Below are positions 34,819 to 38,614 of a DNA stretch of 64,000 nt, in pieces. This DNA is from Terrimicrobiaceae bacterium (GTDB lineage: Bacteria; Verrucomicrobiota; Verrucomicrobiia; Chthoniobacterales; Terrimicrobiaceae), in NCBI GenBank assembly GCA_018402345.1, contig JAGYIV010000008.1, forward strand, positions 186,001-250,000, read 5' to 3'. Numbering within the stretch: position 1 is the first letter of the stretch; the number at the start of each line of letters is the position of its first letter. Below the pieces are notes generated by a model, which worked only from the letters and a program-made list of their open reading frames with translations, did no database searches and was not told the DNA's origin. The position numbers and the translations under genes were made by a program.

Positions 34819-35571
34819 CTACAACCCGGTCGGGTGGTCGATAAACTGCCACGGGAGCGCGAACTTCCTGGCCAGCAACTCGGCAAGCGCCTTCACCCCG
34901 AACGTCTCGGTGTCATAGTGCCCGGCATAAAACAAATTCACCCCCGCCTCCTCTGCCGCCGTGTAGGACCAATGCGGCCCCTCGCCCGTGATGAACGTGT
35001 CGACCCCGGCCGCAGCCGCTTTCACCACATCGCCTCCCGCCCCGCCGGTTACCACGCCGATCTTGCGCGCCACCACCGGACCTCCCGGCGCCAAATGCAC
35101 CGAACCGCCGACCGCGCGCTCCAAGTGGTCCCTCAACACCTCGCGGTTCATCTCGGCATCGAACATCAACCCGATCCGCTGGCCGAACGACTCGAAAAAA
35201 GGCTGCCCGCCCTCGAGCCCCACCGCAGCGGCCAGCAGCGCGTTGTTGCCGACCTGCGGATGAATGTCGAGCGGCAGATGAGAACTGTAGACAGCCATGT
35301 CCGCCTCCATGAGTAATCGCATCTTCCTGTAGTTCGCCCCCGTCACCGGCGCCAAGCCGCTCCAGAACAACCCGTGGTGAACCACCAGAAAATCCACCCC
35401 GGCATCAGCCGCATCGCGGATCACCGCCTCGGTCGCATCCACCGCCGCCCCGATCCGCGACAACCCGCCGGAATTTTCCACCTGCAACCCGTTTTTCGCC
35501 TGCGGATAATCGCCCACCACCGATGTTTGCAGGAGTTCATCGAGGTATCGGACAGCTTCATTCAAATGCAT
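34819..35571 (-). CDS. Nif3-like dinuclear metal centre protein
   Basis: This 250-residue protein belongs to the NIF3/YbgI family, which forms toroidal hexamers with two metals per subunit. Metal-ligand motifs are visible: VVHHGLFWSG (two His), SSHLPLDIHPQVGNN, and GHYDTETFGV near the C-terminus. Family function is debated (GTP cyclohydrolase type 2-like activity has been reported). It is the first gene downstream of the long gene-free stretch and is transcribed away from it. The start MHLNEAVRYLDELL is typical. Confidence 0.92.
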   Translation of the reverse strand: MHLNEAVRYLDELLQTSVVGDYPQAKNGLQVENSGGLSRIGAAVDATEAVIRDAADAGVDFLVVHHGLFWSGLAPVTGANYRKMRLLMEADMAVYSSHLPLDIHPQVGNNALLAAAVGLEGGQPFFESFGQRIGLMFDAEMNREVLRDHLERAVGGSVHLAPGGPVVARKIGVVTGGAGGDVVKAAAAGVDTFITGEGPHWSYTAAEEAGVNLFYAGHYDTETFGVKALAELLARKFALPWQFIDHPTGL

Positions 35572-35659
35572 CTCGCTGGAAACTATGCACCCCGCAGCAG
35601 CGGATGAAGAGGTTTTTCACGGCGGGAAAACTCCCCGCATGCGACATCCCCAAAAAGTT

Positions 35660-35693
35660 ACAGCCCGTCGCGACGATTGTCGCAACGGGCTGT
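35660..35693. repeat. Strong inverted repeat
   Basis: A 15-base arm ACAGCCCGTCGCGAC is matched by GTCGCAACGGGCTGT around a GATT loop, with 14 of 15 positions paired. It lies 88 bases upstream of the Nif3 start in the 494-base gene-free region. There is no T tract of note after it on either strand (TTGTTCCCC on plus). It may be a terminator, an operator, or the 5' part of the candidate RNA that follows. Confidence 0.6.
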
Positions 35694-35727
35694 TGTTCCC
35701 CCCAGAACGATTTCAAACCTATCGGGG

Positions 35728-35875
35728 GATTCTTCGACGACAAGACTTTTTTTCAGCACGTCACGATTTTTTCCCCTACCCGGAACGCAAGGAGACATCT
35801 ACCTCGCCTCGCTGAGGCACTCTCCTTCAAGACCGCTTGGGGAGAGAGAAAAAAGATCAACTCCGCTTGAGAATC
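35728..35875 (+). ncRNA. Candidate rod-shaped non-coding RNA, 6S-like outline
   Basis: The two halves of this stretch pair along their length. GATTCT (35728) pairs with AGAATC (35870-35875), CAAG (35741) with CTTG (35866), and TTTTTT-CCCC (35767-35776) with GGGG (35839-35842) and AAAAAA (35849-35854). A 12/11-base bubble follows, then AAGGAGA (35789) with TCTCCTT (35821), and a terminal hairpin GCCTC-GCT-GAGGC (35806-35818). No convincing gene overlaps it, and a strong plus-strand terminator lies 75 bases downstream. A closing stem, central bubble and apical hairpin are the outline of 6S RNA, but I do not recognise conserved 6S bases and the ends are uncertain. Confidence 0.35.
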
Positions 35876-35950
35876 TAAGAGTTCCGCAAAGATCCCGCTA
35901 TGCTTCGCAGCGGACCATGGCACATCTCATCCTTGGACACTGATAGACCG

Positions 35951-35987
35951 CCGCCACAAGCGCCCGCTTGTGGCGGTGTTTCTATTT
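35951..35987 (+). terminator. Rho-independent terminator without an upstream gene
   Basis: CCGCCACAAGCG (35951-35962) and CGCTTGTGGCGG (35965-35976) form a perfect 12-base stem, followed by TGTTTCTATTT. The T-rich side is on the plus strand, yet the nearest plausible plus-strand genes are more than 4 kb upstream, and both flanking genes are on minus. The rest of 35572-36065, apart from this, the candidate RNA, a small CCGCT/AGCGG hairpin at about 35896 and the inverted repeat at 35660, shows nothing recognisable. Confidence 0.75.
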
Positions 35988-36065
35988 CAGATCTTATGAG
36001 CCTCTCACGTGGAATCCTCGCGCTCCATATGTCTCACCTCATACCCGCAGGGGCAAAAGGCGCCT

Positions 36066-36842
36066 CTACCGGGGGGAGTTGGCCGACTGCGGAGGTGCGG
36101 GGAGGAGGGGCTTGGCGCTTTCCTGGAGGAACCAGCCTTGCTGGCCTCCGGGGAGTTGGCCATGGAACCAGCGCCCGCTGGTGCCGAGGACAGTGATGAG
36201 CGTGCCGGGGGCGAGGGTGGTGATTTTTCCAGAGGGGTCTTCGGTGGGAGTGCGTTGGAGCGGGGCGCCGGTGGCGTGGAGGATCATAACCTCGCGGGCG
36301 TCGAGGATGCGGGGATCGGTAGTCCAAGACAGCAGGACCGAGGCGGATCCAAGCACAAGGAGAAAGCCACCGGTTACGCGGCCGTTTTTCTTGTTCCAAA
36401 GGAGGGGGGCGAGGAGGAGAAACGCTCCAGCCCAGAAGGCAAGCGCTCCGGCTGCCGTCAACACATCGGCCGGCACCGCGGCGGCGACCTTGTCGCGCCA
36501 ATCCAATGGGGGAGTCGGAATACCAAGATCGCGGTTCGCCGCCTGGAGGGCCTCGCGGGCGGGAGTGAACGCCGGATCGAGCAACAAGGTGCGGCTGTAG
36601 GCCAGCGCGGCGTCGGCTGATTTGTCGGCACTGTCTTGGAGTTGGCCGAGTTCATAGTAGATCGCGGCACTCGGCGCCGCGCTGTCGAGATGCCGCTGGA
36701 ACAACGCGGCAGCGGCCTCGCGTTCACCGTTGGCCAACCTATCCCTCGCCTCGGTCAACAGATCGGCGCACGAGAGAAGGCCCGTTGCCTGCACGGCGAG
36801 GAGAATCGCGAACACACGGAAAAACGGACGGCGGAAATTCAT
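36066..36842 (-). CDS. batE: BatE-like TPR and SH3 membrane protein
   Basis: This 258-residue protein is the last gene of the Bat cluster. It has an N-terminal signal anchor (FFRVFAILLAVQATGLLSC), TPR repeats (residues ~20-105), two transmembrane segments around residues 130-175, and an SH3-like ending (LAPGTLITVLGTSGRWFHGQL). This matches BatE architecture. Bat proteins are linked to aerotolerance and envelope stress in Bacteroides and Leptospira. The LLSC at residue 24 could be a lipobox. The start at 36842 overlaps the batD stop (36839) by four bases. Confidence 0.8.
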   Translation of the reverse strand: MNFRRPFFRVFAILLAVQATGLLSCADLLTEARDRLANGEREAAAALFQRHLDSAAPSAAIYYELGQLQDSADKSADAALAYSRTLLLDPAFTPAREALQAANRDLGIPTPPLDWRDKVAAAVPADVLTAAGALAFWAGAFLLLAPLLWNKKNGRVTGGFLLVLGSASVLLSWTTDPRILDAREVMILHATGAPLQRTPTEDPSGKITTLAPGTLITVLGTSGRWFHGQLPGGQQGWFLQESAKPLLPAPPQSANSPR

Positions 36843-38614
36843 ACGATTGTCTTCCTCAAGGCGGTGGCAATACGCGCACGGCTGTCGCGATCGAGCGGCT
36901 TCGCGGCGCCGGGAGCGTATTTGCATTCGTCGTGCCGTGCGAGCAGGTCGCGAAGCGCCGTGGCAGTGTCGTCATCGAAGGCCTCCAGTGCCACCGCCGC
37001 CCCCAGTGGGGAATCGGACGTTTGCAATGCCTCGTGCAGGATTTCAACAGCTTGCTGGGCAAAATCGGCATCGGGGGTATTCTCCAACGCCACGAGACGC
37101 GCATCGAGCGACCTGCGGCGACGGCGATTGATCCCGGCGTGAGAGGTTGCCGAGAGGCGGAAGAGCCCAAAGGCAAGGAGTGCCACCCAAAGCAAAGCGA
37201 CCCCCGCGTTTGCCGCGAGGAACCAGGGTTGCTCCATCCACGGCCTCCAACTCGAGGCTCCCAGTGCTTGTTTCGCCTCGGCGATCACAGGTGCGGGGGT
37301 GGCAGTGGCGGGAGGCGCCTTTCCGTTGGAACCTGACTCCGCAGGCGTCGGCGTGGCTTTTGCCGCGAGTGCCTCGACCGGCAGGGAATCCTTTGAATGC
37401 ACCACGTAGTTGCCGGTGGAGGGGTCGAATGAAGTGAATCTCACCCCTGGCGTCTGTGTTTGGTCGGCGCGCGCCACCAAAAGGTATTCATAGGTTTTTT
37501 CGCCGGAGAAGTTGATCGCATCGGTCGCGCGGAAGGTTTCGGTGGGCGGGTAGGAACGCCATTCGTCGGCACCGGTCAACACCGGCGCACCCATTGCGTC
37601 GAAATTTCCCTGTCCCGACACGACCACCCGCAGGGTCACCGGCTCGCCGGGTCCGACCCTCGCAGGGCTCACGCTGGCGGCGATCTCGAATTTTCCAATC
37701 GCACCCGAAAAATCCTCGGGCCGTCCCTCCTTCGGCAAGGAGACGACGTCCAGTGCGATTGGCCGAGTCTCAACAGCGACATCCTGCGCGTTCGTGAACA
37801 TGCCCGGAGGGACCATGCCTCCGAAATTCCTGAAAAAGTCATCGAAGCCCGGAGGAGCGCTTCCGGGCACCTGCAGTCGGGCGTCCAGCGTCGCTGCGGG
37901 AATCTCGATCTCACCCGATTTCGCGGGGCTGATGGCTGTCTGGAACGCAAACACGATGTAGTTTTCGCCATTCACGATCTGCTCGCGCTTTGGCACGTTG
38001 GCGAAGCGTTGGACGGTGAACCCCTCGCCGGTGAGGTTCGGCCGGTCGCCCACCTCGCCACCGATATTGGTCTTGAAATAAAACCGCACCTCCGCCGGCA
38101 CGACCTCGCCGACATAGGCCTTCTTTTTCGACAGCACGAGATCGCCGAAAAACGGCAGACCGTTTCCACCGCGCGCGCTTGGGGGCATGGGTGGTGCTTG
38201 CCCTCCGGGAATCGTGGGCGGTGGCAACGGCATCGCGGCGGCATCCGCCACCTGCAAACGGAGAGGATTTGAGCGCAGCGTCTTGTTTCCGACGCGCACC
38301 TCGATCGGAGGAATCTCGAACTCCCCGGTCTTCGATGGCGTGACTGAATAGGTGTAGGTCAGCGTCGAGGTGATACTCAAATTGTGCATCTCGAAGCGCG
38401 TCGATCGGCCGAACAACTGGATTTGCAATCCCGGCACATCGATTCTTTCCGGCACGTCGGCCGAGCGCACCCCGCGCACCGTGACCACGATCTCCACCGG
38501 CCTGCCTACGGTCGTCGAGGGACTGCTCAAACCCGCGGTCACCTCCTGCGCGGCGAGCACTGGCGCGCCGATCAATGCGAGGAGGCAGGCGAGGAGAAGC
38601 GGTGCGTGTTTCAT
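36839..38614 (-). CDS. batD: BatD (oxygen tolerance) protein
   Basis: This 591-residue protein has a signal peptide (PLLLACLLALIGAPVLAAQ), a large beta-rich periplasmic BatD domain with three repeats (SPSTTVGRPVEIVVTVRG, LSKKKAYVGEVVPAEVRFYF, SPARVGPGEPVTLRVVVSG), a Pro/Ala/Thr-rich linker, one transmembrane helix near residue 490 and a cytoplasmic helical tail. The three repeated clauses are typical of BatD. It lies 13 bases after the BatB-BatC gene and overlaps batE. It probably pairs with the VWA proteins BatA/BatB in the inner membrane. Confidence 0.88.
   Translation of the reverse strand: MKHAPLLLACLLALIGAPVLAAQEVTAGLSSPSTTVGRPVEIVVTVRGVRSADVPERIDVPGLQIQLFGRSTRFEMHNLSITSTLTYTYSVTPSKTGEFEIPPIEVRVGNKTLRSNPLRLQVADAAAMPLPPPTIPGGQAPPMPPSARGGNGLPFFGDLVLSKKKAYVGEVVPAEVRFYFKTNIGGEVGDRPNLTGEGFTVQRFANVPKREQIVNGENYIVFAFQTAISPAKSGEIEIPAATLDARLQVPGSAPPGFDDFFRNFGGMVPPGMFTNAQDVAVETRPIALDVVSLPKEGRPEDFSGAIGKFEIAASVSPARVGPGEPVTLRVVVSGQGNFDAMGAPVLTGADEWRSYPPTETFRATDAINFSGEKTYEYLLVARADQTQTPGVRFTSFDPSTGNYVVHSKDSLPVEALAAKATPTPAESGSNGKAPPATATPAPVIAEAKQALGASSWRPWMEQPWFLAANAGVALLWVALLAFGLFRLSATSHAGINRRRRRSLDARLVALENTPDADFAQQAVEILHEALQTSDSPLGAAVALEAFDDDTATALRDLLARHDECKYAPGAAKPLDRDSRARIATALRKTIV

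Follow-up and report, generated by a model that had tools for sequence, protein, structure and literature searches.

Genomic context of the locus

The window (the whole 64,000-nt stretch of Terrimicrobiaceae DNA analyzed here) includes a gap free of genes at 35572-36065 which, as originally predicted, is bounded by minus-strand genes on both sides. An unannotated small RNA had been proposed for this gap, and our analysis does point to one, but in a different part of the gap, on the other strand and of a different kind. The features of the gap and its borders are listed below (the evidence is given in parentheses).

34819-35571, minus strand: DUF34/NIF3 gene (PF01784, 1.7e-54)
35652-35656, minus strand: terminator U tract (sequence; TTTT at the same place in 132 of 148 copies)
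35660-35693, minus strand: putative intrinsic terminator hairpin of 15 bp with a 4-nt loop (covariation; minus-strand terminator scan)
35694-35708, minus strand: 15-nt 5' element GUUCUGGGGGGAACA, a 4-bp hairpin (5 bp with a U-G pair) with a G-rich loop
35708 (5') to ~35652 (3'), minus strand: small RNA gene, predicted transcript of ~57 nt (copies, covariation, fold z -7.08, similarity limits)
35716-35721, minus strand: -10-like element TAGGTT (of the ~82 copies with a recognizable promoter, 49 keep it 6-8 nt upstream of GUUC)
35738-35743, minus strand: -35-like element TTGTCG (conserved columns at -35 to -33 among 70 copies)
35747-35753, minus strand: A-tract upstream of the -35, UP-element-like (at positions -44 to -40, 66-81% of 70 copies have A)
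35728-35875, plus strand: rod of the original prediction, unsupported as an RNA (z -1.57, no relatives, overlap with the sRNA promoter)
35949-35978, plus strand: solitary hairpin of 13 perfect base pairs followed by a weak T tract, unexplained and genome-specific (no match in relatives)
36066-36926, minus strand: open reading frame adjoining BatD- and BatA/VWA-like genes

A DNA comparison of the region 35560-36070 with 38 other genomes gave matches in 26 of them (27 of 39 counting the source genome), confined almost wholly to 35652-35717 (query 93-158), i.e. to the region of the hairpin at 35660-35693. This hairpin, mentioned in the original prediction as a second strong one, is real and is the sole conserved part of what had been proposed; it corresponds to the terminator of the minus-strand RNA. 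The 5' element beside it had been missed.

Organization and strand of the predicted sRNA gene

The predicted transcript (~57 nt instead of the 150-260 nt first proposed) would begin at or shortly before GUUCUGGGGGG and end in the U tract; its sequence contains no ATG. Similarity among paralogs and orthologs mostly begins within one base of 35708. In the only relative sharing the NIF3 neighbor (L002, NIF3 protein 88% identical), it extends from the first base of the sRNA towards NIF3 and not into the rod. Most copies display the same order of parts, namely an A-tract, a -35-like TTGC or TTGT, 16-17 nt, a -10-like TAnnnT, 6-7 nt, a pyrimidine and GUUCUGGGGGGAACA, with a hairpin (15 bp, loop of 4 nt) and then a U tract on the 3' side. 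The folding energy of the minus strand at 35708-35651 is -35.3 kcal/mol, as compared to -15.1 ± 2.9 kcal/mol for shuffled sequences.

The terminator stem, aligned for 58 distinct sequences, has standard pairs in 1102 of 1102 base-pair cells. Two-sided changes occur in 9 pairs, versus a mean of 5.1 in shuffled alignments and 0-2 in the controls with a slid partner. Covariation in related genomes is present for the minus-strand terminator stem, and the rod has no relatives. Since some 110 of the 1102 cells (summed from the pair table) are G-U pairs in the minus-strand reading and would be A-C mismatches on the plus strand, selection acts on a minus-strand RNA. The U tract and the promoter direction agree with this orientation, and the plus-strand reading originally put forward was rejected on these three grounds.

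The promoter-like motif TTG...TAnnnT was found upstream of 55% of 148 copies, as compared to 10% (maximum 18%) in shuffled DNA, 2% on the opposite strand and 8% downstream. The distance from the end of the -10 to GUUC is mostly 6-7 nt or 16-18 nt, the latter class representing copies with a 5' extension (often ending in AAAGATT). The locus appears to have the features generally expected of an intrinsically terminated sRNA, i.e. its own promoter (conserved -35, -10 and A-tract) and a terminator under structural selection. Overall, these sequence comparisons make it very likely that this is a real transcribed sRNA gene.

In some paralogs from genomes of family f6 (L183-L186 and L188), an ECF-type promoter-like CTAAC-N16-GTCTTA stands upstream in place of the sigma-70-like motif, which suggests that these copies may be stress-specific paralogs.

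Distribution and conservation

The source genome contains five copies of the sRNA. Exact matches to the 15-mer (~203, our own sum over the table of matches) were found in 104 of 107 genomes of the order Chthoniobacterales, representing 37 of 37 genera, with 1-7 copies per genome and none for the reversed control. The three genomes without it include two of only 0.9 Mb and one that is 65% complete. Among 387 sampled genomes of the phylum, just one from outside the order contained the 15-mer, where ~2 would be predicted by chance from the genome sizes; its occurrence beyond the order is at chance level. A pattern scan of a 257-Gb collection (one genome per species) returned 65 stretches, all of them in records named Spartobacteria, Chthoniobacter, Chthoniobacterales, Terrimicrobiaceae, Verrucomicrobiaceae or unclassified Verrucomicrobia.

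A covariance model, run on 384 genomes of the class, detected the sRNA in 71 of 73 genomes of the order and gave weak matches (E above 2e-4) in 8 of 311 outside it. The latter were dismissed as ordinary terminators, both of those inspected (L193, L194) being devoid of the 5' element; two weak extra matches in the source genome (L197, L198) were set aside as also lacking it. The search pattern alone does not explain the constancy of the 15-mer, because this model does not demand the exact string (the alignment A1, on the other hand, was gathered with the exact 15-mer and cannot show variation there). Among the inspected covariance matches clearly belonging to the family, a single one (L187) has one change in the 15-mer; in a weak match (L199), its place is taken by an altered, though related, string. 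In distant families the terminator hairpin differs in both sequence and length, and the 15-mer is still exact. The stem bases GUUC/GAAC are invariant within the family.

Judging from these copies (~200, in 37 genera), the 15-mer is under very strong constraint. The sRNA probably does an important job in Chthoniobacterales, as almost all of the genomes searched in this order carry its first 15 bases without change.

In some genomes gene copies stand in tandem, 195-330 nt apart (L153 at 1001, 1311 and 1640; L059 at 4127 and 4386; L136 at 1501 and 1696). Another copy with a promoter is located at the very end of an IMG/VR contig (L201, 9295-9408), which may be mis-binned or consist of host DNA adjoining a prophage.

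Comparison with known RNA families

A search of Rfam 15 with the covariance models of 6S and all other families gave nothing above the gathering thresholds (the best sub-threshold match was CrfA, at 15.1 bits versus 38). The sRNA has nothing in common with 6S RNA (RF00013) beyond being a small RNA: it is 57 nt long and has two hairpins and no open rod.

The 6C sRNA of mycobacteria (B11) is described, in the account of Mai et al. 2019 given in PMC12395582, as short and chaperone-free, offering homopolymeric hairpin loops to mRNAs. The present sRNA would be analogous, but no more than that, in being short, in presenting a G-rich loop suited to pairing with C-rich mRNA sites and in residing in a host without Hfq. 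However, its loop is G-rich on the transcribed strand, whereas that of 6C is C-rich, the phyla are different, and no Rfam match to 6C RNA (RF01066) was obtained on either strand. The LhrC sRNAs of Listeria are another multicopy family, with several near-identical copies per genome (PMC4132741). The likeness to LhrC lies in the several copies per genome, presumably with common targets; on the other hand, no sequence relation is known, and Listeria has Hfq. The seeds of LhrC are C-rich. A hairpin with GGA at the loop and stem, and several copies per genome, are also reminiscent of CsrB/RsmZ, but the GGA is single here and CsrA is missing from three quarters of the genomes of the order.

Possible mode of action

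According to the proposed scheme, a stand-alone minus-strand gene would produce a ~57-nt non-coding RNA, released by its own terminator and stabilized by its two hairpins. Acting in trans and without Hfq, this RNA would offer its G-rich loop (UGGGGG) to C-rich stretches of several mRNAs and, on opening, could make the whole 15-mer available for pairing (the 15-mer with a 12-nt C-rich complement yields -22.9 kcal/mol). Paralogs under different promoters would feed one common target set under different conditions. We consider it moderately likely that these copies represent a new multicopy family of Hfq-independent, trans-acting sRNAs, with base-pairing through the G-loop as its likeliest activity. 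Base-pairing as the mechanism, taken by itself, is a serious possibility.

Neither Hfq nor CsrA can be the general partner, since Hfq was not found in any of 104 genomes of the order (the same search does find it in E. coli and others) and CsrA is present in only 26 of the 104. An Hfq-dependent sRNA and a CsrA sponge of the CsrB/RsmZ type (with one GGA only) were both rejected accordingly. A crude search of the source genome with TTCCCCCCA gave no clear target set: there were 23 sites, 5 of which are the sRNA genes themselves, as compared to 9 with the reversed control. The remaining 18 are mostly within coding sequence, only a few being located in the ~130 nt that precede an open reading frame.

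The main rival to base-pairing is protein binding, a more tentative possibility. The invariance of the GUUC/GAAC stem, which a seed confined to the loop would not need, is at least as compatible with a protein ligand. In a specific version, which we regard as rather unlikely, a protein, or the machinery of translation or transcription, would recognize the GUUCUGGGGGGAACA hairpin and be titrated by the RNA. All 15 bases, including both strands of the stem, are kept without compensatory change while the terminator evolves freely, and the presence of several copies per genome would suit titration. A contact with the ribosome is conceivable too, as pairing of the G-run with the anti-Shine-Dalgarno tail would yield -9.5 kcal/mol (versus -16.9 kcal/mol for a full SD). 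Against this version, there is no known candidate protein, CsrA being excluded as the general partner by its distribution and by the single GGA, where many would be expected; moreover, long invariant 5' seeds occur in base-pairing sRNAs as well. Sequestration is the mode of action of CsrB-type and 6S-type RNAs. That the sRNA carries a 15-nt recognition element of an order-specific global regulator (a protein, the ribosome or RNA polymerase) is likewise not very probable; if true, it would be a new sequestration system ranking with 6S or CsrA/CsrB, in bacteria without Hfq.

Stand-alone gene or cis-acting element

The assignment of the sRNA as a stand-alone gene follows from the fact that the flanking genes differ and the downstream orientation is random. 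For 70 copies, simple ORF calling (which makes the counts approximate) has the sRNA and its nearest downstream neighbor sharing a strand, as compared to 62 with the two on opposite strands. The neighbors vary, including NIF3, SecA, MurJ, LipB, an HSP70-like gene, infA, rplI and holA (all names except NIF3, the AsmA-like gene below included, were read from the sequence by eye). Action in trans, not as a leader, is quite likely.

A cis-acting leader or attenuator, in which the promoter and an early terminator control the downstream gene (here DUF34/NIF3) with the G-loop as a sensor, is improbable. It would accommodate the 70 same-strand copies, the NIF3 gene that is downstream in L002 as well, and the AsmA-like gene found downstream on the same strand at 14 loci (lineages f12 and f13). 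However, it leaves the 62 opposite-strand copies unaccounted for, the downstream genes are mutually unrelated (NIF3, SecA, MurJ, infA, rplI and others), and we saw no conserved alternative antiterminator structure, the terminator stem being kept as a perfect helix. In lineages with a single copy (L113-L124, L035, L082), the sRNA is directly upstream of the same-strand AsmA-like gene, and this site is possibly the ancestral place.

Even less probable is a DNA element, i.e. a GTTC-N6-GAAC operator overlapping the start site with an incidental hairpin. The 5' element is indeed an inverted repeat just 3' of the -10, but its G6 center is invariant, its orientation to the promoter and terminator is fixed, the terminator hairpin follows directly 3' in the copies inspected, and in the 5'-extended copies it is 16-22 nt from the -10. 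A mobile (REP- or IS-like) repeat was rejected as well: copies adjoin the same genes across species (infA, MurJ, LipB, NIF3) and similarity mostly stops sharply at the RNA, so that they look like inherited genes.

The original model of a plus-strand 6S-like sRNA of 150-260 nt ending at 35985 has a terminator-like hairpin in its favor and is hardly credible, given a rod of z -1.57 without relatives or a 6S match and a true 6S gene elsewhere. A rod can be drawn at 35728-35875, but it is not unusually stable (-39.6 versus -33.5 ± 3.9 kcal/mol for shuffles, 14 of 200 of which are equally good), and the minimum-energy fold of 35640-35990 does not retain it. Part of its closing stem and TTTTTTT run is the minus-strand RNA's -35 region and A-tract read in reverse complement. 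The 6S-like outline did not hold either: there is no 6S match in 35560-36070 at E up to 10, and the genome's own 6S RNA is at C2:532396-532577, outside the window (47.1 bits, just over the curated cut-off). The plus-strand terminator hairpin does exist (35949-35978, 13 pairs, with the T-rich tail TGTTTCTATTT), but it is not conserved, being unmatched in the 38 related genomes; the rod and this terminator region together gave one 29-bp match only. By chance alone, a simple terminator scan would be expected to return 0.7 sites of this type in a stretch like this one. We can name no transcript that this hairpin would end, and nothing in the analysis pointed to a plus-strand transcript ending at 35985.

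Implications for Chthoniobacterales

The sRNA family appears to be undescribed so far, no sRNAs of Verrucomicrobia or Spartobacteria having been found in the literature searched, which covered few of the subscription journals. It spans the whole order Chthoniobacterales (Verrucomicrobiota: Spartobacteria), whose members are frequent in soil and fresh water. Hfq was not detected in this order, and the same literature yielded no report of sRNA regulation for it. The presence of sigma-70-like promoters at some paralogs and ECF-like ones at others suggests that several stimuli converge on a single output. Because the 15-base string is so strongly constrained, its partner should be findable, and the sRNA offers a way into the post-transcriptional control of Chthoniobacterales that can be tested directly.
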